Origin: Lachnospiraceae bacterium MC2017
GTDB lineage: Bacteria; Bacillota; Clostridia; Lachnospirales; Lachnospiraceae
Reading direction: 5' to 3'
Assembly (NCBI GenBank): GCA_000701625.1
Contig: JNJK01000001.1
Span: forward strand, 62,001 to 126,000
DNA length: 64,000 nucleotides
Positions 478 to 62,890 of the stretch are shown here, piece after piece; position 1 is the first letter of the stretch, and every line of letters starts with the position of its first letter. A model generated the notes under the pieces. It ran no database searches, was not told the origin of the DNA, and saw only the letters and a program-made list of their open reading frames with translations. The position numbers and the translations under genes are program-made.

Positions 478-1206
478 TTACTCGTTCCAGTTGTGGTATA
501 CAGCCTGAACGTCATCATCCTCATCAAGCAGATCCAGGATTCTCTGGATCTTTGTGATAGAATCCTCATCTGTTACATCAACATAGTTCTGAGGGATCTT
601 TGTTACTTCTGCAGAAACCATAGGAACGCCTGCTTCCTTAAGAGCCTTCTCTACTTCCTCAAATGCATCGGGAGAAGTAAGGATTTCAAAGCTGTCATCC
701 TCTTCATTGAAATCATCAGCACCTGCATCAAGAGCTGTCATCATGAGGTCATCTGCTGATCCTTCATATTCTTCCTTATCTACGATGATCTGTCCCTTAT
801 CATCAAACATGAAAGATACACAGCCCTGAGTTCCAAGGTTTCCGCTTCCCTTTGTGAATGCAGAACGAACATTAGCTGCTGTACGGTTCTTATTATCTGT
901 CAGGCAGTTTACGATGATAGCTGTGCCTGCAGGACCGTATCCCTCATATGTGCAGTATTCGTAGTTTACGCTTGCGCCTTCACCGGATGCCTTCTTAATA
1001 CCACGCTCGATAGTATCGTTCGGCATGTTGGAAGCCTTTGCCTTTGCAATAACCTGAGCAAGCTTAAAGTTGTTGCTCGGATCCGGACCGCCTTCCTTTA
1101 CGGCAACTGCGATCTCACGACCGATAATTGTAAAAATCTTTCCCTTTGCAGCATCGTTCTTTTCTTTCTTATGCTTGATGTTTGCAAATTTTGAATGTCC
1201 TGACAT
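478..1206 (-). CDS. yebC: YebC/PmpR family protein (TACO1-like)
   Basis: The 242-residue protein has the full family length and the diagnostic N-terminus MSGHSKFANIKHKKEKNDAAKGK in slightly variant form, followed by the NMPNDTIERGIKKASGEG block. An acidic C-terminal region is typical of the family. Family members were named transcriptional regulators, but more recent work assigns them to relieving ribosome stalling on difficult peptide stretches. The start is supported by an AAGGAGA ribosome binding site at normal spacing. It follows the CBS-domain gene with a gap of about 55 bp. Confidence 0.95.
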   Translation of the reverse strand: MSGHSKFANIKHKKEKNDAAKGKIFTIIGREIAVAVKEGGPDPSNNFKLAQVIAKAKASNMPNDTIERGIKKASGEGASVNYEYCTYEGYGPAGTAIIVNCLTDNKNRTAANVRSAFTKGSGNLGTQGCVSFMFDDKGQIIVDKEEYEGSADDLMMTALDAGADDFNEEDDSFEILTSPDAFEEVEKALKEAGVPMVSAEVTKIPQNYVDVTDEDSITKIQRILDLLDEDDDVQAVYHNWNE

Positions 1207-1260
1207 AGTAAATCTCCTTTTGCTTCATAGCTGTAACGGTCAGTCTTATGCCGATCCGGT

Positions 1261-2148
1261 CTACAGATTTTTTCTTTCTAAATTTTTGGAATGATTTCCG
1301 GACGCCCCGGGTCCAGGGTCAACCGGCTCCGCCTCCTCTTTCGGAAGCCGGGTGCATCTGACAGACTGAATTACACGTCCCTTTACGTAGGCAATCCTGA
1401 ATCTGTAGCCTGAAAATTCAGTTTCAAAATCTTCTCCCGTTTTGGGGACATGACCTAATCTATCTGTCATAAAGCCGTTAAGAGTCTCATATCCGTCATC
1501 CGGAAACTCTATACCTAGTTTTTCTCCTACTTCTTCAAGCGAAGCCAGACCTGCACAGATAAACGTATCATCTCTCTGAAGTCTTATCTGGGTTTCCTCA
1601 TTGTCATGCTCGTCCTGAATATTTCCGACGATCTCCTCCAGGATATCTTCCATGCAGACAATACCTGTAGCCTGTCCGTATTCATCGACCACGACTACCA
1701 TGTGTATCTTTTTCTGCTGCATCGTCCGGAAAAGAGAATCAATCTTACGTGTCTCCGGAATAAAATGAGCCTCCATCAGAAGACCATCTATCTCCCTTAA
1801 GGTCTTTTGACGGTTTTCCTGATGAACATTGGCTTTCATCGCATCCTTAAAATGCAGGATCCCGATTATATTGTCCACATTATCCTCATACACAGGATAG
1901 CGGGAAATATTTCCGTCCAACATAATATCGACAGTCTCACTAAGCGTAAGGCTGTCTTCTAGACCTATGATATTCTCACGGTGTGTCATGATATCCTGAG
2001 CTTCTTTATCTCCGAAGTCCAGGATCTTGGTTATCATCTCCGCTTCCGACGCTTCTATGACACCACTCTCATGACCTTCATTCACCATGGAAATGATCTG
2101 ATCTTCATTCAGTTTTTCTTTTTTGAATAGTTTTTTTAGTGATAACAT
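1261..2148 (-). CDS. CBS-pair protein with CorC/HlyC domain
   Basis: This soluble 295-residue protein has a short N-terminal helical region, two CBS motifs (about residues 60-180) and a C-terminal CorC_HlyC transporter-associated domain (about 200-275, around FMTDRLGHVPKTGEDF). It lacks the DUF21 membrane domain, so it resembles CorC rather than the membrane-bound HlyC/YhdP-type proteins. CBS pairs usually bind adenosyl ligands. Proteins of this class are linked to divalent-cation handling, but the ligand here cannot be read from sequence. It lies 15 bp downstream of alr. Confidence 0.85.
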   Translation of the reverse strand: MLSLKKLFKKEKLNEDQIISMVNEGHESGVIEASEAEMITKILDFGDKEAQDIMTHRENIIGLEDSLTLSETVDIMLDGNISRYPVYEDNVDNIIGILHFKDAMKANVHQENRQKTLREIDGLLMEAHFIPETRKIDSLFRTMQQKKIHMVVVVDEYGQATGIVCMEDILEEIVGNIQDEHDNEETQIRLQRDDTFICAGLASLEEVGEKLGIEFPDDGYETLNGFMTDRLGHVPKTGEDFETEFSGYRFRIAYVKGRVIQSVRCTRLPKEEAEPVDPGPGASGNHSKNLERKNL

Positions 2149-2163
2149 ATACCGCTGTTTTAA

Positions 2164-3348
2164 TTATGTATGCTGATCAAAAAAGTCGCTAACCGAAGCC
2201 ACTTCTCCGTTTTTCAAAAAAATACGTGGAATGCGTCTGCCAAGGTCACATACAAGTTCATAGTTGAACCGTCCCGAAAGATCTCCGAGAACTTCCGCAG
2301 TTATTTCTTCATCTCCGTCACGACCTATCAGTGTAACAAGATCACCTTCTTCCGCCTCAGGAATATCAGAAATATCCACCATAAACTGATCCATGCAGAC
2401 TCTTCCGAGTATTTTTGCCTTTTTACCTCTGATCAGTACCCAGCCTTTATTTGAGAGAGATCTAGGATAACCATCACCATAACCGACCGGAATCGTCGCT
2501 ACACGCATACGACTGTCAGCGGTAAAGGTTCCTCCGTAACTCACCGACTCTCCAGGCTCAATGTATTTAATATAAACGATATGACTTTTAAGTTCAAGTA
2601 CAGGGCGTAAAGGTACTCTTTCAAAGGATACATCCGTGCTCGGAAGCAGTCCGTAAAGCGTAATGCCCGCACGCACCATATCCATATTTGCTTTTTTATA
2701 CAGGATCAGACCTGCGGAATTTGAACAATGATGGATCTTGAAATCGACACCATTTTCTTTAAGAAGATCAATATAATCAGAAAATTTCTTTATCTGAGCA
2801 TCTGTCGGATCTTCTCCCTGCATATCCGCCTTTGCAAAATGAGTGAAAATACCCTCGCAATCAACGTTTGGAAGAGAACTGATCTTTTTTACAAGTTCAA
2901 CAGAACTCTCATCCGGTCTGACTCCGATACGGCTCATGGCTGTATCTACCGCAAGATGAATATGAATTTCTTTTCCCTGTTTTACAGCCTCTGCTGAAAG
3001 CGCATCTGCCTGATCCGCTCTGAACACTGCCGGACGGATATCCTCTCTCACAAGATCCGGATATGTCTCAGGAAATGTATAGCCGAGGATAAGAATGGGC
3101 TTTTTTATATCAAACTGCCTAAGCTCCATTGCTTCCTCGGCCGTAGCCACTGCGTATCCCCACAGATAATCAAGTTTTTCCGCTTCCTTCGCGATTTCAA
3201 CTGCACCGTGACCATACCCGTTTGTCTTGACCACAGCCAGCATCTTTGTACCGGTCTTCAACCCTCCATGCATGCTTTCAAGGTTAAAATGAATTGCATC
3301 CAGATCGATGTACGCTGCCACACGTTCGTATTTTTTCAAATGTCTCAC
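2164..3348 (-). CDS. alr: Alanine racemase
   Basis: PLP-dependent interconversion of L- and D-alanine for peptidoglycan. The 394-residue protein begins after a GTG start with a GGA-containing ribosome binding site. The PLP lysine (K41) sits in AVVKTNGYGHG. The second catalytic tyrosine is in the SYGGTF motif, and the C-terminal beta domain carries the GRVCMDQFMVDIS block. Length and domain order are normal. It lies 50 bp downstream of nnr, and the rex-nnr-alr neighbourhood fits a housekeeping operon. Confidence 0.96.
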   Translation of the reverse strand: MRHLKKYERVAAYIDLDAIHFNLESMHGGLKTGTKMLAVVKTNGYGHGAVEIAKEAEKLDYLWGYAVATAEEAMELRQFDIKKPILILGYTFPETYPDLVREDIRPAVFRADQADALSAEAVKQGKEIHIHLAVDTAMSRIGVRPDESSVELVKKISSLPNVDCEGIFTHFAKADMQGEDPTDAQIKKFSDYIDLLKENGVDFKIHHCSNSAGLILYKKANMDMVRAGITLYGLLPSTDVSFERVPLRPVLELKSHIVYIKYIEPGESVSYGGTFTADSRMRVATIPVGYGDGYPRSLSNKGWVLIRGKKAKILGRVCMDQFMVDISDIPEAEEGDLVTLIGRDGDEEITAEVLGDLSGRFNYELVCDLGRRIPRIFLKNGEVASVSDFFDQHT

Positions 3349-3399
3349 GCATTCCGGAGCACCAGCTCCATTAAATTCAAGTCAAAATACTACCAGATT

Positions 3400-4917
3400 T
3401 TAATACACGGCATTTATTATATCACTTGCAAGCAATCCGTGGCAGCCAAATTCTTTTGCTCCTTTATCTCCTGCCTTTCCATGAAGAGCCACACCCAGAG
3501 ACGCTGCCCTTTCCGGGCTAACTCCCTGTGCGATCAGAGAAACTATGATCCCCGTAAGAACATCACCGCTTCCGGCTGTTGCCAGACCGTTATTTCCGTT
3601 GCGATTTATTACAGCAGAGCCGTCTTTCAAAGCAGTTACAGTTCTTGAATCCTTTAAGACGCAGGTAAGACCGTTCTTCTCCGCAAATGACCGTGCTGTT
3701 CCTATGAGATCATCTTTAATTTCAGGAATTGAAAGCCCCGTAAGTCTGCTCATCTCACCTACATGAGGCGTTATAACTTTTTCCGAAACTCCTGATCTTA
3801 ACAGATCTTTGTTTTTTGAAATAATATTCAACGCATCAGCATCCAGCACTACCGGGCGCTCTACGCAATCACTTAGCGCATTTTCAAGTATTTCCGCTGC
3901 CTCCGCGCTCGTTCCGAGACCAGGGCCGATCGCCAGGGCTGTACTCCACTTTATGGCCTCTGACAGTGCTCTCTTCGTCTCGTCACCATCATCTTCTTTC
4001 CACACGGTCACTAACGCTTCCGGCACAGTGCTTTGAATAACTGTCCTGTTATTTTCATGAGTGAATACTCTCACCATGCCGCAGCCTGTTTTCAGCGCTG
4101 CTCTCGCCGCTAATACTGCTGCCCCGGCAATATCACGAGAACCGGCAATAAGAAGCACTTTTCCGTATGTCCCCTTGTTTGAGTCGCTTTTCCTGTCAGG
4201 CAGACATATCTCATCCTCCTCGTATGAAGAAAACTTTGGTTCTGCGCCAAGCGACTTCTCTGTGATACCTATTTCTGCTGTGACGAGCTTTCCTGCGTAG
4301 AGCATTCCCGGCAGCATGATCTCACCGATCTTAGAAAAAGCACAGGCCACAGTCAGATCCGCCCTGACTGCGGTTCCCATGACTTTTCCGGTATCCGCAT
4401 CTATACCACTAGGTATGTCTACAGCGATCACATATGCGCCCCGTTCCTTCAGTTCATTTATTTTATCAATAGCCTTCGCATAGATGCCGCCAACATCTCT
4501 CGAAAGAGACACGCCAAAAACTGCGTCGATCACCACCGCATAATCTCTGTCCGGGACTGTGTCCACGATCTCTATTTCCGGCTCAAATGCTCTCACTGAA
4601 AGGATCTGTTCTTTTTCCAACGGTGATGTCTTCGCTTCTCCACCAACAAGGACAAAATCAACAGCAAATCCCCGCTCCATCAGTATCCTTCCTACTGCAA
4701 AGCCATCTCCACCGTTATTTCCCGGGCCAGAAACCACAAGTGTCCTGCTATCCCGTCTATTTTTTTGTGCGCCTTTTCCCTGTGACAGTATCTTCTCTGC
4801 CTCATCCGCTATCTTCAGGCCGGCCCGTTCCATTAAAACGGCCGACGGAACATGCATCTCTTCAGATGTTTTTCTGTCGGCCATCATCATTTCATCTTTT
4901 GAAAGTATGTACTGCAT
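3400..4917 (-). CDS. nnr: Bifunctional NAD(P)H-hydrate epimerase/dehydratase
   Basis: This enzyme repairs hydrated NAD(P)H. The N-terminal epimerase domain (about 1-215) has SGPGNNGGDGFAVGR. The C-terminal ADP/ATP-dependent dehydratase domain (about 230-500) has GPGLGTS, VLDADALN and GSGDVLTGI. I placed the start at the ATG at 4917 (MQYILSKDEMM, 505 residues). The open frame runs further upstream, but that extension is a lysine/arginine-rich artefact overlapping the coiled-coil gene. The gap to the upstream stop is 10 bp, which suggests co-transcription. Confidence 0.94.
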   Translation of the reverse strand: MQYILSKDEMMMADRKTSEEMHVPSAVLMERAGLKIADEAEKILSQGKGAQKNRRDSRTLVVSGPGNNGGDGFAVGRILMERGFAVDFVLVGGEAKTSPLEKEQILSVRAFEPEIEIVDTVPDRDYAVVIDAVFGVSLSRDVGGIYAKAIDKINELKERGAYVIAVDIPSGIDADTGKVMGTAVRADLTVACAFSKIGEIMLPGMLYAGKLVTAEIGITEKSLGAEPKFSSYEEDEICLPDRKSDSNKGTYGKVLLIAGSRDIAGAAVLAARAALKTGCGMVRVFTHENNRTVIQSTVPEALVTVWKEDDGDETKRALSEAIKWSTALAIGPGLGTSAEAAEILENALSDCVERPVVLDADALNIISKNKDLLRSGVSEKVITPHVGEMSRLTGLSIPEIKDDLIGTARSFAEKNGLTCVLKDSRTVTALKDGSAVINRNGNNGLATAGSGDVLTGIIVSLIAQGVSPERAASLGVALHGKAGDKGAKEFGCHGLLASDIINAVY

Positions 4918-4927
4918 ATTTGCGTCC

Positions 4928-5707
4928 CTACGTTTCATCAGCTTTATTAGGTGCTTTTTGTTCTTCTTTTTTCTCAGAACTGTTTTTATTTTCTTTACCG
5001 TCTGATTTCTCCGGCTCGTTCTCTCCGGCCTCTTTGATCTCCTTTGCGATCTGGCGGGCTTTTTCTTCCCTCTTAGCTTCCATTCTCGCAATGATCTCCA
5101 GACGCTCTGCCTCGATATCATAGTGAATATCAAAGAGATCTACGACCGACGGTCCAAATATTCCCTGCATATAAGAGTATAGTTCCACATTTACAAGTTC
5201 CATGTGCTGCTTTTCAAGGATCTTGCGTTTAAGTTCTACCCTCATTTCCTTGATCCAGGCACCTATGACCTCGATATCTCGCGTATTATCCTTTATCAGA
5301 TCATAGCTCTGCTTCATGGTATGGAGCATCAGTTCTTTATTGACCTCGTCGATCATCTTTGGAAGATCCTTCATCTCATCATAGTATTCTTCCAGTCTCT
5401 CATTGATCTCATTTATCAGACGGCTGCTTTCTTCCAGTTTTTTCTCTGCCAGCTTGTCTGCACCATTCTCAGTTCCGTTTTTATTCTTCATAATTTCGGA
5501 CATGAGATTATTTTTGATCTTTTTTAGATCTTTTTCCTCGGTATTTATCTTTCCCTGACGCTTTATAAGATCATTCAGTTCATCCTGAAGGCGGCGCATC
5601 TCCTTCGTTTCTCCTATTTCCTGGAGAAGCCGGTGCCACTTATTGTCGAGTGTCAGTGTCGGGATTCTGTTTTTCGACACCGCCTCCTTAAACTGATCCT
5701 CTGCCAT
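4928..5707 (-). CDS. Coiled-coil protein of unknown function
   Basis: This 259-residue hydrophilic protein is dominated by predicted heptad-rich helices (about residues 25-175) and has a Lys/Glu-rich low-complexity tail from about 205. It has no signal peptide or membrane segment. I do not recognise a named domain. It starts 5 bp after the rex stop and ends 10 bp before nnr, so it is almost certainly in the same operon. The function is unknown. Confidence 0.8.
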   Translation of the reverse strand: MAEDQFKEAVSKNRIPTLTLDNKWHRLLQEIGETKEMRRLQDELNDLIKRQGKINTEEKDLKKIKNNLMSEIMKNKNGTENGADKLAEKKLEESSRLINEINERLEEYYDEMKDLPKMIDEVNKELMLHTMKQSYDLIKDNTRDIEVIGAWIKEMRVELKRKILEKQHMELVNVELYSYMQGIFGPSVVDLFDIHYDIEAERLEIIARMEAKREEKARQIAKEIKEAGENEPEKSDGKENKNSSEKKEEQKAPNKADET

Positions 5708-5712
5708 TACGC

Positions 5713-6369
5713 TCAGTCATCCTCCCAGATTCCGTGCTCGCTGTTGTAAACATTGATATTGTACGAAAGTCTCATAAGGCTCTCGGAAAGGTGTACGCTC
5801 TCTACTATAACATCGTCCGGTACGTCCAGATCAATGTGAGAAAAATTCCAGATCGCACGTACTTCGCAATCTACCAGGGTCTTTGCAACCGCCACCGCTG
5901 CCGTCTTTGGAATAGCGATCACACCAATATCTATATTGTGTTCCTTAATAAACGCAGGCATTTCTTCTATCGGCATGATCGGAATATCTCTTATGGTATC
6001 TCCGATCACATCAGAAGAAATATCAAAAATGCCCTTCATTATGAATCCACGTTTCTCAAAATTCACATAACCTGCCAGTGCCCGGCCAAGGTTACCTGCT
6101 CCGATAAGCACCAGGCTGTGAGTATGATTCAGTCCGAGGATCTTTCCTATTTCATCATAGAGAAAGCTGACATTATACCCATATCCCTGTTGTCCGAAAC
6201 CGCCGAAATTATTGAGATCCTGACGTATCTGTGATGCTGTTACGTGCATTATTTCGGAAAGTTCCTGCGAGGAGATCTTTTCGATCCCATCATCTTTTAA
6301 TTCTCCCAGGTATCTAAAGTATCTAGGTAGACGCCGAATTACCGCCCTTGATATCTGCTTGTCTGTCAC
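5713..6369 (-). CDS. rex: Redox-sensing transcriptional repressor Rex
   Basis: Rex senses the NADH/NAD+ ratio and represses fermentation and respiration genes. The 218-residue protein has the N-terminal winged helix (RLPRYFRYLGELK, with the QIRQDLNNFGGFG recognition region). The C-terminal Rossmann domain carries GAGNLGRA and the YNVSFLYDEIGKILG segment. Length is typical. It heads the minus-strand operon and diverges from the ABC-F gene. The rex/ABC-F pairing matches the Bacillus subtilis ydiH/ydiF neighbourhood as I recall it. Confidence 0.96.
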   Translation of the reverse strand: MTDKQISRAVIRRLPRYFRYLGELKDDGIEKISSQELSEIMHVTASQIRQDLNNFGGFGQQGYGYNVSFLYDEIGKILGLNHTHSLVLIGAGNLGRALAGYVNFEKRGFIMKGIFDISSDVIGDTIRDIPIMPIEEMPAFIKEHNIDIGVIAIPKTAAVAVAKTLVDCEVRAIWNFSHIDLDVPDDVIVESVHLSESLMRLSYNINVYNSEHGIWEDD

Positions 6370-6539
6370 TTTACTGTCCCGCTTTCAATTTAATTTTTCA
6401 ACACTTATACGGCTTTTATTAGCCGACGATATGTGCTATTATCTTTTCTGTCTGCCTTGGATTACAAACAATGACGTAATTGCCCTTAGTTGTAACGCAA
6501 TGACTACATATGATAATCTACCGTTCATTCTTTATCAAG

Positions 6540-6566
6540 TATAATGAATTGTTAATTAATAGTCAA
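6540..6566 (+). promoter_or_regulatory. ABC-F promoter -10 with overlapping Rex-like operator
   Basis: A perfect TATAAT lies at 6540-6545. Directly behind it, at 6549-6566, is TTGTTAATTAATAGTCAA. Its left half matches the Rex half-site TTGTTAA and its right half is close to TTAACAA. The site would cover the transcription start. The adjacent rex gene makes autoregulation or co-regulation plausible. No good -35 box was found. Confidence 0.4.
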
Positions 6567-6606
6567 TCAATGTATGGCTATTCAACTTAGAAAAAAGGAT
6601 ACTACT

Positions 6607-8592
6607 ATGCTTCTCCAGGTTTATAACATTTCAAAGGCTTTTGTCGGAAAAGACATTTTAAAGGGATGCTCTTTCCATATTGAAGAAAGAGAAAAATGTG
6701 CTCTTGTCGGTGTAAATGGTGCCGGAAAAAGCACATTGCTTAAGATCATCACCGGCAGCATGGAAACTGACGACGGAGAGATCACTTTCTCATCAGGTGC
6801 AACCTGGGGTTATCTCTCCCAGCAGGAAGCCGTTAATAGCGGTCACACTATCTATGAGGAACTCCTGTCGGTAAAGCAGGATCTCCTCGATGAAGAACAG
6901 GAACTCCGTGATCTCGAAAAGGGCATGAAGCACCTGTCGGGCGATGATCTGGAAAAAGCAATGAACCGCTACTCTGCTCTGCAGCACGATTTCGAAATGC
7001 GAAACGGTTATGCCGTTAAGAGCGAGATCACAGGCGTACTCAAAGGTCTTGGTTTTTCCGAAGACGAATTTGATAAGATCATCAATACCCTCTCCGGCGG
7101 TCAGAAGACACGTGTCGCTCTGGGTAAGCTCCTGCTGCAGAAACCCGACCTCATCATACTCGATGAGCCTACGAACCACCTGGATCTCGCATCTATAGAG
7201 TGGCTCGAAACCTTCCTTAGAAATTACAGCGGTGCTGTACTTATCGTTGCGCATGACCGTTATTTCCTCGACCGCATCGTCACAAAGGTTGTTGAAATCG
7301 AGCGCGGAGAAGCACGCACTTTCTCCGGCAATTATTCTGCATATGCAGAAAAGAAAAAGCAGCTCCGGGATGCGCAGCTTAAGGCATGGATGAAGTCCGA
7401 AGCCGAGATCAAGCATCAGGAAGCTGTTATCAGTAAACTCAAGCAGTTTAATCGCGAAAAGTCCATACGACGCGCAGAAAGCCGCGAAAAGATGCTGGAC
7501 AAAATGGAAAGAGTTGAAAAGCCCGAGGATCTGAACGATGCGATGAACCTCACTATCACACCTTCCATCGAAAGCGGCAAAGACGTTCTGACAGTTGAAG
7601 GACTTTCCAAGTCTTTCCCGGATAATGAGCTTTTCAGTAATATTTCTTTTGAGATCAAGAAAGGTGAGCGTGTAGCTCTCATTGGCAACAACGGCACCGG
7701 AAAGACTACGATGCTCAAAATTTTGAACCATATGGAGCTTGCTTCCGGCGGCACTTTCCGACTCGGAACTAATGTAAAGATCGGTTACTACGATCAGGAG
7801 CACCAGGTTCTTCACGCCGAAAAGACTCTTTTTCAGGAGATCAGCGACGCTTTTCCGTCTCTAGATAATACAAAGATCCGTAATACACTGGCTGCTTTCC
7901 TCTTTACCGGTGATGATGTTTATAAGCTTATCGGCGATCTGTCCGGTGGCGAGCGCGGTCGTATGTCCCTTGCAAAGCTGATGCTTAGCCAGGCTAATTT
8001 CCTGCTCCTTGACGAGCCTACGAACCATCTGGATATTACTTCCAAGGAAATCCTGGAGAATGCGCTGAATACTTATGAGGGAACAGTCTTTTACGTAAGC
8101 CATGACCGTTATTTCATTAACCGCACTGCTACAAGGATCCTTGACCTGACTAATCAGCAGATCGTGAATTACATCGGTAATTATGATTATTACCTCGCTA
8201 AGAAGGATGAACTGACGAAGGCTTACCTTGGTACAGAGTCCCAGACCGGTTCTCTGATCAAGGGAGCTTCCGAGCACAAGGCTGCAGTCTCAATTCCTTC
8301 AGATAATGATGCCCAGTCATCAGGTAATACCGGAAGTGCTCAGTCCTGGGCTGAGGCAAAGGCTGAACAGGCCCGCATCCGAAAGATTCAGAATCAGATC
8401 AAAAAATGTGAGGAAGAAATTGACAAGAACGAGACTCGTTCTGCTGAGATCGATGAGCTTTTGTCGCAGGAAGAGATCGCTACCGACCTCGGAAGATGTG
8501 CTGAGCTTGCCCGTGAGCAGGAAGAACTTGCCGCTGCAAACGAGAAGCTTATGGAACAGTGGGAGGCGCTTCAGGAAGAGTTGGGACAGTAA
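6607..8592 (+). CDS. ABC-F family ATPase (YdiF/Uup type)
   Basis: Two ABC cassettes on one chain without membrane segments. Cassette 1 has GVNGAGKST, LSGGQKTRVALGK and LDEPTNHLD. Cassette 2 has GNNGTGKTT, LSGGERGRMSLAK and LDEPTNHLD. A linker and a Uup-like C-terminal coiled coil (about 590-655) complete the 661 residues. ABC-F proteins act on ribosomes, mainly as translation factors, and some give antibiotic protection. I chose the ATG at 6607 because AAAGGA sits 7 bases upstream. The in-frame ATG at 6574 has no such site. Confidence 0.9.
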   Translation: MLLQVYNISKAFVGKDILKGCSFHIEEREKCALVGVNGAGKSTLLKIITGSMETDDGEITFSSGATWGYLSQQEAVNSGHTIYEELLSVKQDLLDEEQELRDLEKGMKHLSGDDLEKAMNRYSALQHDFEMRNGYAVKSEITGVLKGLGFSEDEFDKIINTLSGGQKTRVALGKLLLQKPDLIILDEPTNHLDLASIEWLETFLRNYSGAVLIVAHDRYFLDRIVTKVVEIERGEARTFSGNYSAYAEKKKQLRDAQLKAWMKSEAEIKHQEAVISKLKQFNREKSIRRAESREKMLDKMERVEKPEDLNDAMNLTITPSIESGKDVLTVEGLSKSFPDNELFSNISFEIKKGERVALIGNNGTGKTTMLKILNHMELASGGTFRLGTNVKIGYYDQEHQVLHAEKTLFQEISDAFPSLDNTKIRNTLAAFLFTGDDVYKLIGDLSGGERGRMSLAKLMLSQANFLLLDEPTNHLDITSKEILENALNTYEGTVFYVSHDRYFINRTATRILDLTNQQIVNYIGNYDYYLAKKDELTKAYLGTESQTGSLIKGASEHKAAVSIPSDNDAQSSGNTGSAQSWAEAKAEQARIRKIQNQIKKCEEEIDKNETRSAEIDELLSQEEIATDLGRCAELAREQEELAAANEKLMEQWEALQEELGQ

Positions 8593-8612: not shown

Positions 8613-8829
8613 GCGTGTCGGGATCAGCATCATGTATTCCGAACCGTCGCTCCGTTGTCAGCGCTCCGCCGCCTATCTTCAGGCGCTTCGTCAACTCGGT
8701 TACTTTGTTCACATGCACTTCGTGCGATGCACAAAGTAACCTCAAACAGTGACTCTCGCACCTGAGCTATGCTCGCGCTTCCTGCCTCCGCTTCCAATGT
8801 TCGTCATACGTGATGCTGACCCGCCACGC
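8613..8829. repeat. Element A copy 1: 217-bp imperfect palindrome
   Basis: The ends pair as a long stem (GCGTG with CACGC, and CAGCATCA with TGATGCTG). A central hairpin at 8698-8741 has a 10-bp stem, GGTTACTTTG with CAAAGTAACC. The second copy at 62376-62591 keeps both stems with changed bases on both strands (GCGTAC with GTACGC). Intermediate arms also pair imperfectly. Short ORFs across it are coincidental. It sits between convergent genes. Confidence 0.75.
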
Positions 8830-8857
8830 TGAAATTCGTAAACTTTACTACTACACA

Positions 8858-9050
8858 GGAAGCGGCGAGAAATATTTCCATAAGTATCTCTTTTCGAACC
8901 GCACAGGTAAAATATGCCGCTTATATAAAATTGGCACACAGGACAAGAGCTATACGTCAGCGAATGTCCTGTGTGCCTTATTTTATGTTAGCGGAGAGTT
9001 TACCGTAGTGTCGGTTCCTGAGATGCGCTGGAAATATTCTCACCGCTTCC
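8858..9050 (-). ncRNA. Element B copy 1: candidate structured RNA
   Basis: The ends form a stem of about 20 bp (8858-8879 with 9030-9050). Inside, GAACCG (8896-8901) pairs with CGGTTC (9012-9017), GGTAAA (8906-8911) with TTTACC (8999-9004), and a hairpin at 8933-8977 has a 12-bp stem. The same architecture occurs at 55938 and 62638 with compensatory base changes. The strand is tentative. On the minus strand it begins 15 nt after the icd stop, and several non-Watson-Crick positions become G-U pairs there. Confidence 0.65.
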
Positions 9051-9065
9051 GTCAATTCATTTCAA

Positions 9066-10268
9066 TTAAGCTTCAAGTCTCTTTCTGATAGCCTTGATGA
9101 AGTCGAGGGTGCTGAGTTTCTTTACATTTGTGAGAGTTGTAATAGCTGCCAGATCTCCTGTCATTTCGCCGGCTTCAATCGTGTCGAGAGTTGCTTTATC
9201 AAGCTTATCTGCAAAGTCAACGAGTTCCTGAATGCCGTCAAGCTCGCCTCTCTTACGAAGTGCACCGCTCCATGCAAAGATAGTTGCTACAGAGTTTGTA
9301 CTGGTCTCCTCACCCATAAGGTGCTTATAGTAATGGCGCTGTACTGTGCCGTGTGCTGCCTCATACTCGTACTTTCCATCAGGACTTACAAGGATAGAAG
9401 TCATCATTGCGAGGGATCCGCAGGCTGATGCCATCATATCGCTCATTACATCTCCGTCATAGTTCTTGCATGCCCATACAAATCCGCCCTTACTTCTCAT
9501 GACTCTTGCTACTGCATCATCAATGAGTGTATAGAAGTACTCGATTCCCGCTGCCTCAAACTTATCCTTAAATTCCTCATCATATACTCTCTGGAAGATA
9601 TCGCGGAAATCTCCGTCATAGATTTTTGAAATAGTATCCTTTGAAGCAAACCACAGATCCTGCTTTACAGAAAGCGCATAGTTCATACAGCTTCTTGCAA
9701 ATCCTTCGATAGATCCGTCAAGATTGTGCATACCCTGGATGACACCCGGTGCCTTGAAATCAAAAATAGTCTTTCTGATCTCCTGTCCATCTTCACCTGT
9801 GAAAACAAGCTCTGCCTTTCCTGCACCGGGAACCTTTATCTCGGTATTTCTATAAACATCACCGTAGCTGTGACGAGCGAGTGTGATAGGCTTTTCCCAG
9901 TTCCATACGTGAGGCTTTATGCCCTTTACAAGGATCGGAGCACGGAAAATTGTTCCATCCATGATACCACGGATAGTTCCATTCGGGCTTCTGTACATTT
10001 CGTGGAGACTATATTCTTTTACGCGGGCATCGTTAGGCGTGATAGTTGCACACTTAACCGCTACTCCGAGTCTGTTTGCAGCTTCTGCCGCCTCTATAGT
10101 TACCTGATCTCTTGTCTCATCTCGATGCTTAAGACCAAGATCATAGTACTCTGTCTTGAGATCAATGAATGGATTTAAAAGCTCATCCTTAATATACTGC
10201 CAGATGATCCTGGTCATCTCATCTCCGTCCATCTCAACAAGGGGTGTCGTCATCTGAATTTTTGCCAT
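9066..10268 (-). CDS. icd: Isocitrate dehydrogenase, NADP-type
   Basis: Oxidative decarboxylation of isocitrate to 2-oxoglutarate in the cytoplasm. The 400-residue protein matches the eukaryote-like homodimeric class: the N-terminus has [13 protein letters not shown], then the [11 protein letters not shown] region, the [16 protein letters not shown]-like block ([16 protein letters not shown]) and [15 protein letters not shown] with the metal-binding aspartates. An AGGAGG ribosome binding site precedes the ATG. A GntR-type regulator gene lies just upstream, and element B1 follows the stop. Confidence 0.95.
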
Positions 10269-55697: not shown

Positions 55698-55937
55698 TAC
55701 AGCGTTGTTACTGTTCAGACGCAACCGGAGCACTCCGCTGCGGATACTACGAACACTTAGTGAACGCATGTGAGCTTAGTGAGAGTGTATGCTTTAGCTG
55801 GTTACAACCATAGAATAAGGCAAGCCATTATGATTTTGCCCATCGCCGGAGGCGATTTAATTTGCAAAACATGTTACTGGAGCGAGCCGCAGGCAAGCAA
55901 CCAGTAACCCACTACAACCTTGAGCAAACAAAAGTCA
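55698..55937. repeat. Intergenic repeat-like region with C-type hairpin
   Basis: No gene. Includes a GTTACTGTTCA motif shared with element C, a GCATG/GTATGC hairpin, and GTTACTGG (55873-55880) paired with CCAGTAAC (55901-55908) around a GAGC/GCAAG interior. It occupies the place that element A holds beside the other two B copies. Confidence 0.45.
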
Positions 55938-56134
55938 GGAAACGGAAAGTATTGATTTCCATAAGCATCCCGTAAAGAACCGCACAGGTGAGATCCACTG
56001 CCTACGCAGACTTAGCGCGCAGGACAAGAGCGATACCGAAAGCAAATGTCCTGCGTGCTATAGTCGAAGTAAGCAGTTAGCTCACCGTAGTGTCGGTTCC
56101 CAGGGATGCGTTGGAAACAATGCTTTCCGCTTCC
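55938..56134 (-). ncRNA. Element B copy 2: candidate structured RNA
   Basis: Same architecture as 8858-9050. The outer stem is 55938-55960 with 56113-56134, and the hairpin is at 56014-56059 with GCGCAGGAC and GTCCTGCG. GGTGAG pairs with CTCACC where copy 1 has GGTAAA/TTTACC. It begins 30 nt after the stop of the PLP decarboxylase gene on the minus strand. Confidence 0.65.
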
Positions 56135-56163
56135 GTCACCCCAAAACACACTGATCCAACAAC

Positions 56164-57315
56164 TCAACTCTCCAAAGGAACATTAATAACATCCGCAGCA
56201 TCCGCGCCACGAATAAGCTTCAGCTCCGAGCCTGTATCAAGCCACAGTTCCGGAAGTCTGCGTGATAAAAATAGCGCCGGTGCTTCCATTGCCGAGTATG
56301 CGCCTGTTCTTTCAAATACAAGCTCATCACCGATTTCAAGAGGTGAGAGGCTTATATCCCGGGCGAGTACGTCTGCTGTTGTGCAGAGGCTTCCGCAGAG
56401 AGTATAAATCTCTTCTCCTTCACGTTTATTCTCCTGTCTTACAGGCGGCATCTTCATGGCCATCATCTGACCGAAATAGTTTACCTGATGCATACCACCA
56501 TCAAGGATAACGTAATTCACGCCTCTGTTTGATTTAATGTCGCAAACAGCAGTGTGATATTCTCCGCAAGTCGCTGCGAAATATCTTCCCATTTCGACAC
56601 TCAGAGGATATTCCTCTGCAAAAGCCCTGAGAAGCGGAGCTGCTTCGTTTAAGATCTGATCATCTTTATCCTGAAGCGGTGGATTAAAGTATTCAACAGC
56701 AAAGCCTGCACCGTATTCTACGATCTCAGGCTGAAATCCTGTCTTTTCTTTAAGGACAGCTAATATCTCACGTACTTCCTTCAGATCTTTCTCTATCTTC
56801 TTTCCGCGAGTCTTTCCTGTTCCTGAGAAATAGTGAAGTCCCATGAAGTTCAGATGCTTATAGCTTTCTTTGTTAGAAAGAACATCTAAAAGATCCTCTT
56901 CGCTCATGCCAAACTGGCTTCCGGCAGAAAAACGAAGGATAACGTTCAGCTTTCCGGAAACGCTCTCACACTCAGCGCCCTCTTCTAAAAGCTCCACGTG
57001 ACGAATGCTTTCAGCTGTGAGTATATCAGAGCCATATCGTATCGCTTCACGAATATCAGATAGTTCCTTCATCACACCGGAATACAGTACTTTTTCCGGA
57101 GGTATATGAAGCCTCTCCACGATAGAGAGTTCTCCCGGACTGCAGACCTCAAACCTGGTTATCTCATCAGGGAGCGGGCCTGTAAGTATGAAAGGATTTG
57201 CCTTTATCGAGTAAACGAGCGGAATACCCGGAAGCGCATTTTGAACTGTACGTACAGACTCTGCGAATACCTCTGAGTCGAAAATATAGTAAGGTGTCTG
57301 AGGTACCGTCTGCAT
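56164..57315 (-). CDS. Fold-III PLP decarboxylase of a carrier-protein pathway
   Basis: 383 residues related to diaminopimelate/ornithine decarboxylases. The PLP lysine is K38 (YSIKANPF). HYFSGTG (161-167) replaces the family HIGS motif, EMGRY (241-245) and CGSLCTTADVLARD (307-320) give the decarboxylase-type Cys and Asp, and TGAY (338-341) follows. The Cys-x-x-x-Asp motif argues for decarboxylation rather than racemisation. It is 5 bp after an acyl carrier protein gene. BtrK of butirosin synthesis and the exosortase-A decarboxylases are precedents for such enzymes near a carrier protein. Confidence 0.8.
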   Translation of the reverse strand: MQTVPQTPYYIFDSEVFAESVRTVQNALPGIPLVYSIKANPFILTGPLPDEITRFEVCSPGELSIVERLHIPPEKVLYSGVMKELSDIREAIRYGSDILTAESIRHVELLEEGAECESVSGKLNVILRFSAGSQFGMSEEDLLDVLSNKESYKHLNFMGLHYFSGTGKTRGKKIEKDLKEVREILAVLKEKTGFQPEIVEYGAGFAVEYFNPPLQDKDDQILNEAAPLLRAFAEEYPLSVEMGRYFAATCGEYHTAVCDIKSNRGVNYVILDGGMHQVNYFGQMMAMKMPPVRQENKREGEEIYTLCGSLCTTADVLARDISLSPLEIGDELVFERTGAYSAMEAPALFLSRRLPELWLDTGSELKLIRGADAADVINVPLES

Positions 57316-57320
57316 CTTCT

Positions 57321-57551
57321 TTACTCCTCTGAAAGGTTCTCTACAAGCTTTGTGATCGCATCGAGTGAGTCAAAGTTCTCAGCCTTTAATTCCTTCGGTG
57401 TGATCTCGATATCAAACTCATCATCAAGCTCTGAAACGATAGAAACTATATCAAAAGACTCCAGCAGGCCACCGGAAACAAGTTCTGTCTCATTTTCAAA
57501 ATCAATGTCAGGTCTCTGATCCTGAAGGATCTCAAGTATTCTGTCTCTCAT
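57321..57551 (-). CDS. Acyl/peptidyl carrier protein (DltC-like)
   Basis: 76 residues. The phosphopantetheine serine is S32 in GGLLESFDIV, followed by the helical EIT..FDSL end (ELDDEFDIEITPKEL, ENFDSLDAITKLV). The motif is ESF rather than the usual DSL/DSM. It sits between the adenylating enzyme and the decarboxylase, so it likely carries the activated amino acid. Confidence 0.88.
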   Translation of the reverse strand: MRDRILEILQDQRPDIDFENETELVSGGLLESFDIVSIVSELDDEFDIEITPKELKAENFDSLDAITKLVENLSEE

Positions 57552-57640
57552 GTAAAAATTCCTCCTAAAATAAAGTCAATAGCAACTATTCAGAACAACC
57601 AAAAGAGTTCAGAACAGTTAACTGACCAAATACTGCATCA

Positions 57641-59158
57641 CTATTTTATCCCTGCTTCGCTCTTAAGGGAAGCTAAATCTGTTTTTCCGTTCGGAAGTTT
57701 TGGAAGATCGTCCTTTTTTACTACTTTTCTGGGAATCATAAATCCCGGGAGCTCTGTCCTGAGGAAAAGAACAAGATCTCGTTTTTCCATTTCTCCGGAA
57801 TAAAACAGCCAGATGATCTCTTTATCATGGTCGTAGAGAACTGAACACTCTGCTACGCCGGCTGTCTGAGCTGCAGCAGCCTCTATCTCATCGAGCTCAA
57901 CTCTGTGCCCCATATGCTTTACCTGACGGTCACGACGCCCGTGAAACTCCAGTATACCATCTTCTCTGTACTTTCCGATATCACCGGTTCTGTACATCCT
58001 GTCAGGATACTCCGTAACAAGCGGATTTCTCACAAATGCAGCCTCTGTGCGTTCCGGATCTCTGTAGTAGCCAAGTGCCAGGATCGGACCGCTTACACAG
58101 ATCTCGCCCTCTTCTCCAACTGCCGCCTCTTCACCATTGTCCTTAAGCAGGAATACCTTGTAATTATCATAAGGAACTCCTATCGGCAGCATCTCATCAT
58201 CAGTGACCTGATGATCTACACGATAATAGGTGCATGAGGCTGTTGCCTCTGTGGGACCGTACTGATTTACAAATACAGCTTCCGGCAGGTTCTCCTGCCA
58301 GATCCTCAGAACCTTGCCTGGCATTACAGAACCTGAAAAACAGATCTTTTTAAGAGTCTTAAGCCCTGTATCCTTAAATGCTCCAAGTTTGGTAAGGACA
58401 GTCAGCCCGGACGTACTCCAGCCGATAGTAGTGATCTCTTTTTCATTCATAAGGTTAAAGAGCTCATCCGGCTGCATGAAGTACTCTTTCGGAAGGAGAT
58501 AGTCTGATGCCCCCGTAAGAAGAGGCACATAAATATCACGAACTGCCGCAATATAATCAAGCGGTGACTGACATCCTATCTTATCTTCTCTGCGGATCCC
58601 CATCATATGCGAATACGCACTGATATAGCACATAAGTGAATGATGACTTGTAAGAACTCCCTTAGGACGTCCGCTGGATCCGGAAGTAAAAATGATATAA
58701 AGAGGTTCATTTTCCGTCATATTTGTTCTGATCTTATTAAGAACAGGCCATGCCGTGATCCCGGTATTAAGTTCCTCTCTGACGAACACAGGACACTCTG
58801 CTATTCCCGCATATTTCGATGCGGTCTCCAGATTTTCATTTTCCGTAAGGACTGCGGACGGCTGTAATGTATCTAAAATCTTGCACACACGATCCTCGGG
58901 AAGTGTCACATCAATGGGCGCATAAACATGTCCGCTGTATACTACAGCCAGATATGAAACTATCGTATGAACCGTTCTGCCCATCATAACCGCTATCGGA
59001 GCGGGATCAGTTATTTTTTCCGCCAAACGGCTTCCGATCCGTCTGGCTTCTTCGAGAGTCTGACGAAAGGTAATGGCTGTATTTTCATCTTCATAAGCTA
59101 TATTATCAGGTGTCAGGCGGCCTGCTTTCTCAAGCCACTCCAAAACATTCTTTTCCAT
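57641..59158 (-). CDS. Amino-acid adenylating enzyme (DltA-like)
   Basis: 505 residues of the AMP-binding family. A3 is FTSGSSGRPKGV (158-169), A5 is NQYGPTEATAS (298-308), A7 is YRTGDIGKYREDG (389-401), A8 is RQVKHMGHRVELDEIE (411-426) and the A10 lysine is in LPNGKTDL. D201 in SPLDYIAAVRDIY aligns with the Asp that contacts the alpha-amino group, so the substrate is probably an alpha-amino acid. D-alanine is the default for DltA, but specificity cannot be read with confidence. Confidence 0.85.
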   Translation of the reverse strand: MEKNVLEWLEKAGRLTPDNIAYEDENTAITFRQTLEEARRIGSRLAEKITDPAPIAVMMGRTVHTIVSYLAVVYSGHVYAPIDVTLPEDRVCKILDTLQPSAVLTENENLETASKYAGIAECPVFVREELNTGITAWPVLNKIRTNMTENEPLYIIFTSGSSGRPKGVLTSHHSLMCYISAYSHMMGIRREDKIGCQSPLDYIAAVRDIYVPLLTGASDYLLPKEYFMQPDELFNLMNEKEITTIGWSTSGLTVLTKLGAFKDTGLKTLKKICFSGSVMPGKVLRIWQENLPEAVFVNQYGPTEATASCTYYRVDHQVTDDEMLPIGVPYDNYKVFLLKDNGEEAAVGEEGEICVSGPILALGYYRDPERTEAAFVRNPLVTEYPDRMYRTGDIGKYREDGILEFHGRRDRQVKHMGHRVELDEIEAAAAQTAGVAECSVLYDHDKEIIWLFYSGEMEKRDLVLFLRTELPGFMIPRKVVKKDDLPKLPNGKTDLASLKSEAGIK

Positions 59159-59182
59159 TTCCTGCTCCCTTATTTAGAATTT

Positions 59183-59218
59183 GTTACTGTTCACTCGCTT
59201 TCAGCTCGCTCACGTAAC
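59183..59218 (-). repeat. Element C copy 2: short inverted repeat
   Basis: GTTAC...GTAAC ends. On the minus strand the core is GTGAGCGAGCTGAAAGCGAG. It lies between the MBOAT stop and the adenylating enzyme start. It is similar to 54631-54668 in the opposite orientation. Confidence 0.65.
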
Positions 59219-59230
59219 AGATTTTGCAAA

Positions 59231-60820
59231 TTAAAACTTTGCATATATCATGCCTGCTGCATCGTAACCATTTCCATATGCTCCAAACAGCACGATAACA
59301 AACACGCACGCATACCAGAAAAGCATGCGTACTACAAGCGGTTTTGACATCAATGCCGCTCTGATCGGATAGTTTCGCTCTTTCAGCACGCTTATAATGA
59401 TAACGACTACAAGACCGACTATCACTGTCCAGTAATCCCAGAAATCCATACCGAGAAGTCCCAGATTGTCCGTAAGAACATTCCAATGGAAATTTGTAAA
59501 TATCTGTTTGAACATCTCAAATCCCACAGAAAAAGTATCTGCACGGAAGAACATCTCTCCGATGATCACAAGGAAAAACAACTTTACGAACCGGAATACA
59601 CGGACAGGAATCGATGTTTCTTTAAGCTTCATTTTCTCAAGAAGGAAAAGAAACGGTCCCTCAACTATGTTTTCAAGTTCGATCAGAACAAAGTAATACA
59701 TTCCGTAAAAAATATATGTCCATCTCGGTCCATGCCAGAGACCGTTAGACAGCCACACAAGAAACAATGCCAATGCCGGAGCTGCCAGATTTCCTACATA
59801 TTTTCCGAAACGATCACGGATTTTTTTCGTAAACTTCATTACAGGCTTTGAAAGCGTTACCGGATAAAAAATATAATCCTTAAAGAACGTTCCAAGTGTT
59901 ATATGCCAGCGTCTCCAGAAATCAGAGGCATTTTTTGCAAAGAAGGGCTGTCTGAAATTCTCATGCATATGGATCCCGAGTGTCATACCGCTTCCGATAA
60001 CAATGTCTATCGTACCGGAGAAATCCATATATTCCTGAAGTGTAAAGAGCACTGCGGCCGCCAGTGACAGCGAGCCGTCCATGATATTGTTTTGGAATAA
60101 AATATCCACTGCCGGTGCCAGATGATCAGCTATAACGAGCTTCTTGAATAAGCCCCAAAGTATCCTCTGATAGCCCTCAGCAAGGCTATTTGCCCTTACC
60201 GGTTCTCCCTCTGACAATCTGTCTGAAATTTCATTATAACGTGAGATCGGTCCTTCCAGGAGTTTTGGGAAAAACGTCATAAATAGCAGTAATTTTATAA
60301 AATCATGCTCTGCCGCGATATCTTCCCTGTACACATCTGTAAGATACGCTATCGATTCCAGTGTAAAGTAAGAAATACCCACAGGAACCGCCAGTTCCAG
60401 AAGATTCCAATGGAAGCCTCCGTTGAATGCCTGACTTATCCTCACAATAGTGAGTCCTACAAAATCAGCATACTTCATTATGACAAGGATCAGGAGCAGC
60501 AGAACTATCGATGCCGCAAGTACCTGCTTCTTTTTCTTTGTCCGTTCTTTACGCTTGATCTCCTTATTTCCTGATATCGACTCCATCAAAAGTCCCGCGC
60601 CAAAAGAAATCCCTGACGCCAAAAACGGAAAGATCACCAGGAGGCCGCTGAAGCTCACATAAAAAAGCAGATTTGCAGCGAGAAGCACATATCTACGAAA
60701 TGCCCTCGGGATCAGCTGATAAAAAAGCAAAGTAAGCGGCAGAAACAATACCGGATAATACCAGACAGCATAGGATACGCCTGTCCCGGATCTCATAAAG
60801 TCAAAGAAATGATTTATCAC
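59231..60820 (-). CDS. MBOAT O-acyltransferase (DltB/AlgI type)
   Basis: 529 residues with about 11 membrane helices. FWRRWHITLGTFFKDYIFYP (301-320) and the catalytic His in NGLWHG (H363) are conserved. MBOATs move an acyl group from a carrier across the membrane to a polymer. Its ATG overlaps the DltD-like stop by 4 bp. It likely uses the charged carrier protein of this operon. Confidence 0.9.
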   Translation of the reverse strand: MINHFFDFMRSGTGVSYAVWYYPVLFLPLTLLFYQLIPRAFRRYVLLAANLLFYVSFSGLLVIFPFLASGISFGAGLLMESISGNKEIKRKERTKKKKQVLAASIVLLLLILVIMKYADFVGLTIVRISQAFNGGFHWNLLELAVPVGISYFTLESIAYLTDVYREDIAAEHDFIKLLLFMTFFPKLLEGPISRYNEISDRLSEGEPVRANSLAEGYQRILWGLFKKLVIADHLAPAVDILFQNNIMDGSLSLAAAVLFTLQEYMDFSGTIDIVIGSGMTLGIHMHENFRQPFFAKNASDFWRRWHITLGTFFKDYIFYPVTLSKPVMKFTKKIRDRFGKYVGNLAAPALALFLVWLSNGLWHGPRWTYIFYGMYYFVLIELENIVEGPFLFLLEKMKLKETSIPVRVFRFVKLFFLVIIGEMFFRADTFSVGFEMFKQIFTNFHWNVLTDNLGLLGMDFWDYWTVIVGLVVVIIISVLKERNYPIRAALMSKPLVVRMLFWYACVFVIVLFGAYGNGYDAAGMIYAKF

Positions 60821-61791
60821 GAGTACAGCACCGCCTTTTCCAGATTTTGTTTCCAGTCCATAAAGCCTATATCATCTCTATGATCCGGAAGATCGTATTC
60901 TTTTGAAAGGTATTCACCAAGGTAATCCATAACCTTTACTGAACCCGCAAAATTAACGTGATTTCCATTATCCATGGTGTCTTTGGACCAGTCTATTCCG
61001 ATCTCATCAAGTTTTTTATTGAGATCCAGATACTTTACATTCTTTTTATCTGCCCATTTCTCAACGGCGCGATGTTTACCCATGTTCCAGTTTGTGGCAC
61101 TTGGCGCAGATATAAGCAAAAGCTCCGCTCCATTCTCCTCACAAAGCTTCTTGATATCATTCAGGATGTGCTCATTTTCTTCCGGCATCTTTGCCTTTGG
61201 CGCATCATCGCTCATGTAATCGCCGCCTTCATATGGACGCTCCATAGTCTCCACGAGAAATCCCTTAAATACTGCCGCGTCAGTGTAATATATATCTTTC
61301 GCTTTTACAGAAGACGGAAGCCATGATTTATAAAATATATGGTAATGAAATAAAGGAAAGATCTTTTCAACATCATTTGTAGCCTTTGCCTTTTCATCAC
61401 GAAACGCGCCTGCATCCTCAAAAAGAGCATCTGTTTCAAGTATCACGAGCTTCGGGCTCTGCATCTTGAAAGTCTCCGAGAGGATCTCTCTGGAATCACA
61501 GAGACGAAGGGCACTGGCTCCCAGATTATATGAAGTTACACCGTGATCACGATACAGCTGAAGTGGTGAAAAAGAACGGTATGACTCACTGTTTCCGACA
61601 AACAATATATCCATGCTCTCCGGTCTTTCATGTGCCGTCACTTCGTTTTTCATCTTAACGGCCGTAATATCGTAAACGTCTCCGCTATCCGGCTTTATAA
61701 CGGCCGAAATGACCGCCAGCATAATAAAAAGACCGCCCATAAATATCACGCCGTGGGCGGCCTCTTTGTGTTTTCTAAAAAATTCTCCCAT
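60817..61791 (-). CDS. DltD/AlgX-like SGNH-fold protein
   Basis: 324 residues with one N-terminal membrane helix (about 14-33) and an extracellular domain. FVGNSESYRSF matches SGNH block I with Ser in a NSE context, and DNGNHVNFAG supplies the block V His. It is the usual partner of DltB-type MBOATs and may help transfer the group to its acceptor outside the membrane. Confidence 0.8.
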   Translation of the reverse strand: MGEFFRKHKEAAHGVIFMGGLFIMLAVISAVIKPDSGDVYDITAVKMKNEVTAHERPESMDILFVGNSESYRSFSPLQLYRDHGVTSYNLGASALRLCDSREILSETFKMQSPKLVILETDALFEDAGAFRDEKAKATNDVEKIFPLFHYHIFYKSWLPSSVKAKDIYYTDAAVFKGFLVETMERPYEGGDYMSDDAPKAKMPEENEHILNDIKKLCEENGAELLLISAPSATNWNMGKHRAVEKWADKKNVKYLDLNKKLDEIGIDWSKDTMDNGNHVNFAGSVKVMDYLGEYLSKEYDLPDHRDDIGFMDWKQNLEKAVLYS

Positions 61792-62375: not shown

Positions 62376-62591
62376 CAGCGGGAGGCGGCATCATGTTCGC
62401 TCACCGTCGCTTCGTTGTCAGCGCTCCGCCGCCTATCTTCAGGTGCTCCGGCAACTCGCGTACTTTGTTCCCATGCACTCCGTGCAATGCACAAAGTACG
62501 CTCAAACAGTGCCTCCCGCACCTGAGCTATGCTCGCGCTTCCTGCCTCCGCTTCCAATGGTTCTCGAACGTGATGCCGACTCCCACTGCTG
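62376..62591. repeat. Element A copy 2: 216-bp imperfect palindrome
   Basis: The ends pair CAGC with GCTG, then CGGCATCA with TGATGCCG. The central hairpin is GCGTACTTTGT with ACAAAGTACGC. Compared with 8613-8829, paired positions change together. It lies just upstream of the zinc-ribbon gene. Confidence 0.75.
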
Positions 62592-62637
62592 ACATTTGAA
62601 AATACTCAAAATTCATTGCATCGTCATCGAAATATCA

Positions 62638-62833
62638 GGAAGCGAAGAGCGTTGATTTCCATAAGCGTCCCGTAAAGAACCGCACAGGTGAGATCCACTG
62701 CATACGAAGACTTAGCACGCAGAACAAGAGCGATACCGAAAGCGAATGTTCTGCGTGCTGTAGTCGTAGTTGCAGTTAGCTCACCGTCGTGTCGGTTCCC
62801 CGGGGTGCGTTGGAAACAACGCTCTCCGCTTCC
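62638..62833 (-). ncRNA. Element B copy 3: candidate structured RNA
   Basis: Outer stem is 62638-62660 with 62812-62833, and the hairpin at 62714-62759 has CAGAAC with GTTCTG where the other copies have CAGGAC/GTCCTG. The inner GGTGAG/CTCACC and GAACCG/CGGTTC helices are kept. It lies about 58 bp beyond the terminator of the GH3 gene, so it would need its own promoter or read-through. Confidence 0.65.
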
Positions 62834-62890
62834 GTCACCCCGAGCCAGCAAGTTATGCCAGCCTCAACCAACCCTCACTAAACGTTCTGC

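Follow-up and report, generated by a model that had tools for sequence, protein, structure and literature searches.

Element B, a family of small interspersed repeats with a conserved fold, probably of RNA, in Lachnospiraceae

The published sequences nearest in kind to the repeats described here, which we call element B, are the mobile/repeat sequence candidates (PMC11109978) and the small repeats of the pneumococcus (PMC3049150), as presented in the portions of both sources on which we draw. Multiple copies and an inconsistent orientation to genes define the category of mobile/repeat sequence candidates, which includes MRSC-65-2, a motif of diverse phyla with a conserved UYCCGG repeat, for which the authors leave open whether RNA or DNA is concerned (PMC11109978, in the portion dealing with this motif). 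Like element B, MRSC-65-2 forms a single long stem with strong covariation, often in dozens of copies per genome; judged by that description, it is unlike element B in that the latter was found in Lachnospiraceae alone, differs in its conserved loops and is constrained where orthologous copies could be compared (PMC11109978).

BOX, RUP and SPRITE of the pneumococcus resemble element B as small folded interspersed repeats of few related species, over-represented between convergent genes, and the portion of the source that treats them presents them as mostly dormant, with some BOX copies transcribed, and as parasitic in the authors' judgement (PMC3049150). Compared by description, element B differs from BOX in that no modular boxB build was seen and in that it looks constrained at four sites (PMC3049150, as far as its account of BOX goes). 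Pneumococcal small repeats are also described as bunching and inserting into one another, and repeats A, B and C lie side by side in the DNA studied here in a similar manner (PMC10969869, in its passages on small repeats). The same passages present ERIC and Correia as MITEs that can alter RNase cutting of host transcripts; by this description they are mostly intergenic, like element B, and belong to other hosts (PMC10969869).

Here we present an analysis of element B in a 64,000-nucleotide stretch of the genome of Lachnospiraceae bacterium MC2017 (assembly GCA_000701625.1, contig JNJK01000001.1, positions 62,001 to 126,000 of the forward strand), hereafter the window, and in related genomes. 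Element B is best read from our results as a new family of small interspersed repeats whose fold, probably that of an RNA, is conserved.

Copies, neighbouring repeats and distribution

Three related copies of element B are present in the window, as a first-pass annotation of the sequence had proposed; all lie on the + strand, and their refined ends fall within 2-4 bases of the limits it gave. The copies and the repeats beside them are given below, with scores from R1, the first covariance model of element B (R2 being the second).

8627..8842, + strand: element A, a separate dispersed inverted-repeat family, directly upstream of copy 1
8856..9054, + strand: element B copy 1, 199 bases; 191 bits with R1 (E 8.3e-43; the model contains copy 1)
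55705..55909, + strand: repeat C, a third dispersed repeat, directly upstream of copy 2 (at about 906-1110 of the query)
55936..56138, + strand: element B copy 2, 203 bases; 233.4 bits with R1 (the model contains copy 2)
56027..56046, + strand: tip of copy 2, a 3x3 purine internal loop closing a short variable hairpin, with AGA (56027-56029) opposite AAA (56044-56046)
62388..62602, + strand: element A, directly upstream of copy 3
62636..62837, + strand: element B copy 3, 202 bases; 229.4 bits with R1 (the model contains copy 3)

Aligned with further copies, the termini of element B read CAGG...GTCA, and the element bears imperfect terminal inverted repeats, CAGGAAGCGG.../...CCGCTTCCGTCA. ERIC, with 127 bases, is shorter. 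No reading frame was open in more than 12 of 79 copies and none was consistent among them; element B is short, multi-copy, intergenic and non-coding, as is expected of a MITE, when judged with a simple ORF caller by which some short ORFs overlap copies. Each window copy lies on the stop side of a minus-strand ORF, at a distance of 11 bases for copy 1 (ORF 9066-10268), 25 bases for copy 2 (56164-57315) and 100 bases for copy 3 (62938-63972). The window genome (G000, 4.26 Mb) holds eight distinct copies, the others being 73-90% identical to copy 2, and five copies were found in G014. The search of G000 gave nine rows, one of which was a palindromic self-match and was not counted; opposite-strand self-matches of the palindrome were excluded from copy counts.

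Element A occupies 17 places in G000, 14 in G014 and 14 in G066. In the window it adjoins element B twice, and in G066 six to eight times. That A and B form one mobile unit in G000 was rejected, given that only two of the 17 places of A adjoin B. Repeat C also occurs at G000:C1:9956-10126 and G000:C4:268208-268410, and whole or partial relatives of it were found in G000, G014, G066, G009, G065, G032 and others.

Matches to R1 were found in at least 16 of the 48 genomes of the window genus. Matches to R2 occurred in at least 29 of 397 genomes and at least 26 of 334 genera of a Lachnospiraceae sample (own genus included), in at least 6 of 392 genomes of an order sample and in at least 2 of 398 genomes of a phylum sample. 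All genomes matched in the family, order and phylum samples, each of which includes the window genome, belong to Lachnospiraceae. These screens give lower bounds because few candidates were scored per genome; counts over 40 genomes used stricter filters, with at most 6 (R2) or 51 (R1) candidates scored per genome. One genome of the window genus, G061, has no R1 match and a single R2 match. The annotation had not recognised the element as a known family, and this agrees with Rfam 15, in which no family reached the gathering score for the window or nine loci, and none matched element B at E up to 10 in three loci. Copy 2 had no match in the plasmid or phage collections, and none of the papers listed in searches of the open-licence literature described the repeat.

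Fold, covariation and change at orthologous sites

Each window copy folds, on either strand, into a single long rod of about -99 to -113 kcal/mol, and a rod of 71 pairs is common to 44 diverse copies from 13 genomes of the window genus. The alignment of these copies, A3, was built from 39 chosen loci, which gave 44 matches at E<=1e-16; weaker or partial rows (e.g. L042, L055 and L048:451-663) and most of the near-identical copies of G000, G014 and G066 lie outside it. Of 3019 cells in A3, 92.8% are paired, compared with 34-39% in slid controls, and double-sided changes affect 68 of the 71 pairs, in 939 cells against 152-202 for partners offset by 1-3 columns. The covariation score is 0.747, versus 0.224 after shuffling and 0.09-0.12 with slid partners, and none of 500 shuffles reached the observed covariation values. 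These figures are somewhat inflated, because the model aligned the copies to its own structure, yet slides of one base make them collapse. In a smaller set (13 copies, two genomes), double-sided changes occur at 26 of the 71 pairs, and since the further copies, 13 and then 44, show such changes, chance is ruled out as the source of the matched pairs. The covariation of element B, in this model-fitted alignment, is above the background of shuffles and slides.

The helices named in that annotation were recovered in the rod, with an inner helix of GGTAAA/TTTACC or GGTGAG/CTCACC and a central hairpin, at the tip, of CAGGAC/GTCCTG or CAGAAC/GTTCTG. Its view that the partner strand of the outer stem changes to match does not hold throughout, since every one of the three copies shows at least one A-C or C-A opposition in that stem (pairs 8/198, 11/195 and 12/194), and its supposedly unpaired block CACAGG proved to be mostly paired (CAC with GTG, GG with CC), with one A bulged. 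Conserved unpaired or edge positions accompany the variable helices, namely GA(G/A)AU opposite AGYU and UAC opposite GUU. The 3x3 loop near the tip has an invariant A (column 101) opposite GAA (columns 123-125), these bases being present in 98-100% of the 44 A3 copies; copy 2 and G000_5, both outside A3, have AAA instead of GAA. Among mostly Watson-Crick pairs, G-U cells outnumber A-C cells by 123 to 55, at 38 versus 15 pairs (p=0.002), and by 20 to 11 in the smaller alignment, at 11 versus 7 pairs. This excess of wobble pairs points to folding of the + strand, either as RNA or as single-stranded DNA.

For four copies of element B, the left and right flanks are both orthologous between G000 and G014, with an insert breaking the flanking sequence at two of the four. 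The four pairs differ at 1/202, 0/204, 3/202 and 1/199 positions (the last for copy 1 and its G014 orthologue), for a total of 5/807 and one single-base indel, and none of the five substitutions converts a standard pair to a non-pair. By comparison, the adjoining 50-base flanks differ at 16/349 positions (Fisher p=1.5e-5; the right flank of G000_8, non-orthologous at the boundary, was left aside), and longer aligned flanks, which lie largely in ORFs, at 578/5777 (p=1.7e-27; 8/302 beyond the G000_8 insert and a 27-base piece were left aside). Copies within a genome are far more different from one another, so conversion between copies does not explain the slow change, and selection seems to hold the copies after insertion. 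Element A is also slow to change at four orthologous sites, less markedly than B (24/681 versus 198/2433 in its flanks, one of which includes copy 1 of element B; a fifth aligned piece, 16/202, was left out). As A too is slower than its flanks, repeats of this kind may share some of the slowness.

Several further pairs fall outside the pooled count. G000_3 and G014_1, a fifth pair in which only the 3' flank is orthologous, differ at 7/202 positions, and G026_1 and G028_5 at 2/193, with nearest flanks that are also little changed. G008_2 and G016_2, at the same site, have nearly the same outer stems and an inner hairpin that has been replaced yet still folds, a sign of recombination between copies. 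G009_1, a draft copy joined to element A, was likewise kept out of the pool.

Neighbouring genes and traces of mobility

Copies of element B are scattered between genes in mixed orientation. At 51 copies, a simple ORF caller found convergent genes at 17, genes co-directional with element B at 16, co-directional against it at 9 and divergent at 9; G030_4, with no ORF on the left, and G014_1, with none wholly on the right, were both counted as '<'. The upstream gene is co-oriented with element B at 33 of the 51 copies (p=0.049), an optimistic value because some copies are mutual orthologues, five of the 51 being G014 orthologues or near-orthologues of G000 copies. Six of the eight G000 copies lie between convergent genes; seven of nine in G028 lie upstream of a gene, which starts downstream of the copy. 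Promoter scans at the three window copies gave nothing convincing: a single promoter-like match was seen on the + strand, 294 bases upstream of copy 2, and minus-strand matches were seen at 9065-9036 and 55666-55638, in numbers close to those of shuffles. No intrinsic terminator (short GC stem and T run) was found within the three copies; a terminator-like + strand match lies 80 bases upstream of copy 2.

In G032, six copies identical over 203/203 bases lie within an insertion sequence of ~2.36 kb. Direct repeats flank it wherever it occurs, 9 bases long at five of the six sites and 10 at the other (read by eye), and it encodes a 516-residue protein matching UPF0236 (PF06782), the ISLre2 transposase. 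Element B is thus a passenger of UPF0236 insertion sequences in G032; these were rejected as its general mobiliser because PF06782 has no match in G000, G014, G066, G028 and G062, all of them rich in element B. In G028, most copies lie within outer inverted repeats, outside which direct repeats of 9-13 bases occur at 5 of 9 copies, versus 7 of 72 mismatched flank pairings. Direct repeats of at least 9 bases were found at none of 46 copies from other genomes (0/9 in G000 and G014, 0/14 in G066, 0/9 in G062, 0/5 in G030 and 0/9 in G088 and G345). Whole and truncated pieces of the G028 form of element B also occur elsewhere in that genome (L220-L230), several of which, in contrast to the situation in the window genome, closely precede promoter-like sequence (by eye).

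These observations bear on the argument of the first-pass annotation for selection on RNA structure. Selection on a folded strand is supported; the link to a transposable element, which the annotation had named as evidence against its claim, was found in part, element B being a dispersed palindromic repeat. "Structured RNA" is therefore half of the story, because copies lie inside the G032 insertion sequence, beside the direct repeats of G028 and scattered between genes.

No autonomous element sharing the ends of element B was found in G000 or G028, with one end pattern for each, and the seven exact matches of one end outside element B in G000 all lie in sequence unlike it. Two end matches in G009 had suggested an autonomous 6.5 kb transposon; this candidate was rejected, because the genes lying between the matches are those that separate copies 2 and 3 in the window, and the matches themselves are the copy 2 and copy 3 sites with the interior of element B missing. 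The genes in question (window 56164-61791) form a dlt-like operon (AMP-binding, MBOAT, carrier protein and decarboxylase, named by eye from the G009 translations), whose ORF size and order match in G009. Y1 transposase genes are present in 10 of 16 genomes with element B and in 14 of 32 without (R1 list; several assemblies incomplete), a small excess found mostly in larger, more complete genomes that amounts to no clear association.

At copy 2, the one site examined, no clean empty site was found, the G066 site containing a truncated hairpin and the G014 site being rearranged. Sequences of G000 and G014 part exactly at the 3' end of element B in two of five pairs. At L007 (G000:C3), 898 bases that the G014 site lacks lie to the right of the copy at 1502-1703. 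This stretch begins at the 3' end of element B and encodes a membrane-like protein of 138 residues along with a small HTH protein (by eye); it terminates in an element B without its interior, which repeats the full copy's 5' flank. At another G000 locus (L161, G000:C7:72500-81500, at 1030-7416), two copies in opposite orientation bracket ~6 kb encoding a large helicase-like protein, methylase-like proteins and an HTH protein, of restriction-type appearance (functions by eye). Element B as a landing site for cargo was rejected: G014 keeps one copy and the 3' end of the restriction-type gene beside the G000 copy, so that a deletion in G014 fits as well as an insertion in G000. An extra hairpin is inserted in one arm of element B in L228 (G028:C4:293050-293620) and L212:2687-2958 (G345).

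Competing explanations and meaning of the family

We hold it somewhat probable that element B represents non-autonomous palindromic repeats of Lachnospiraceae, MITE- or BOX-like, which are mobilised in trans, transcribed by read-through and kept in their fold by selection. Such a repeat is preferred to a single non-coding RNA gene because the copies are intergenic and multiple, have no consistent frame, are carried by an insertion sequence and are accompanied by direct repeats. Its + strand would form one rod of ~70 pairs broken by conserved purine-rich internal loops. The copies would owe their spread to transposition by an enzyme acting in trans, which our searches did not recover, and sometimes they ride inside an insertion sequence, as seen in one genome. 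Read-through between convergent genes would put the rod in 3' untranslated RNA, where an RNA-binding protein would likely bind it or an RNase III-type enzyme process it. The slow change at four orthologous sites indicates that selection may keep the fold there, with a putative role at the 3' end.

The main rival is a DNA-level role of the folded strand, in which element B would be a recombination or transposition site at which a recombinase or single-strand transposase reads the fold of the extruded strand, so that the structure is conserved while the sequence is free. G-T pairs are tolerated in folded DNA too, flanking direct repeats are missing from the copies of most genomes tested, sequences part exactly at the 3' end in the two G000/G014 pairs, the 898-base insert adjoins one copy and ends in a truncated one, and genomes with element B show the small Y1 excess. 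However, six of the 16 genomes with element B show no Y1 gene (several assemblies being incomplete), and a DNA site alone leaves the near-unchanged orthologous copies unexplained; we regard this explanation as unlikely, though the strongest of those opposed to a mobile, transcribed repeat.

Strong covariation, conserved internal loops and copy-specific sequences kept between two genomes would also suit a family of trans-acting non-coding RNA genes, multiplied and with their own promoters. This is harder to reconcile with the promoter and terminator scans of the three window copies, which gave nothing convincing, with copies carried by an insertion sequence or bordered by direct repeats, with the truncated pieces of G028 and with the 32 of 48 genus genomes lacking an R1 match (one of which, G061, matches R2), and we consider it quite improbable. 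Template-switch correction in quasi-palindromes is a known mutational process, and the matched arms might be its by-product in imperfect palindromes, with no selection on the fold; the interior-deleted forms demonstrate instability of the palindromes, whether this arises in the cell or during assembly. Template switching would, however, also erase mismatched loops, whose key bases persist in nearly all A3 copies, and leaves the slow change at orthologous sites unexplained, so that this explanation is already disfavoured and appears very unlikely.

Returning to the reading as trans-mobilised repeats with a selected fold, a further step, which we advance only tentatively, is that element B is a domesticated selfish repeat. 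It would then be a host-functional RNA at several sites in a lineage of Lachnospiraceae, for example a module that a dedicated RNA-binding protein reads to process or stabilise 3' ends, under stricter conservation than its largely coding flanks. Folded interspersed repeats are usually taken for genomic parasites; the pairing of element B survives extreme sequence change, and its orthologous copies seem to be protected. The model and coordinates of this folded family, which has no match in Rfam 15, allow testing whether bacteria use such repeats.
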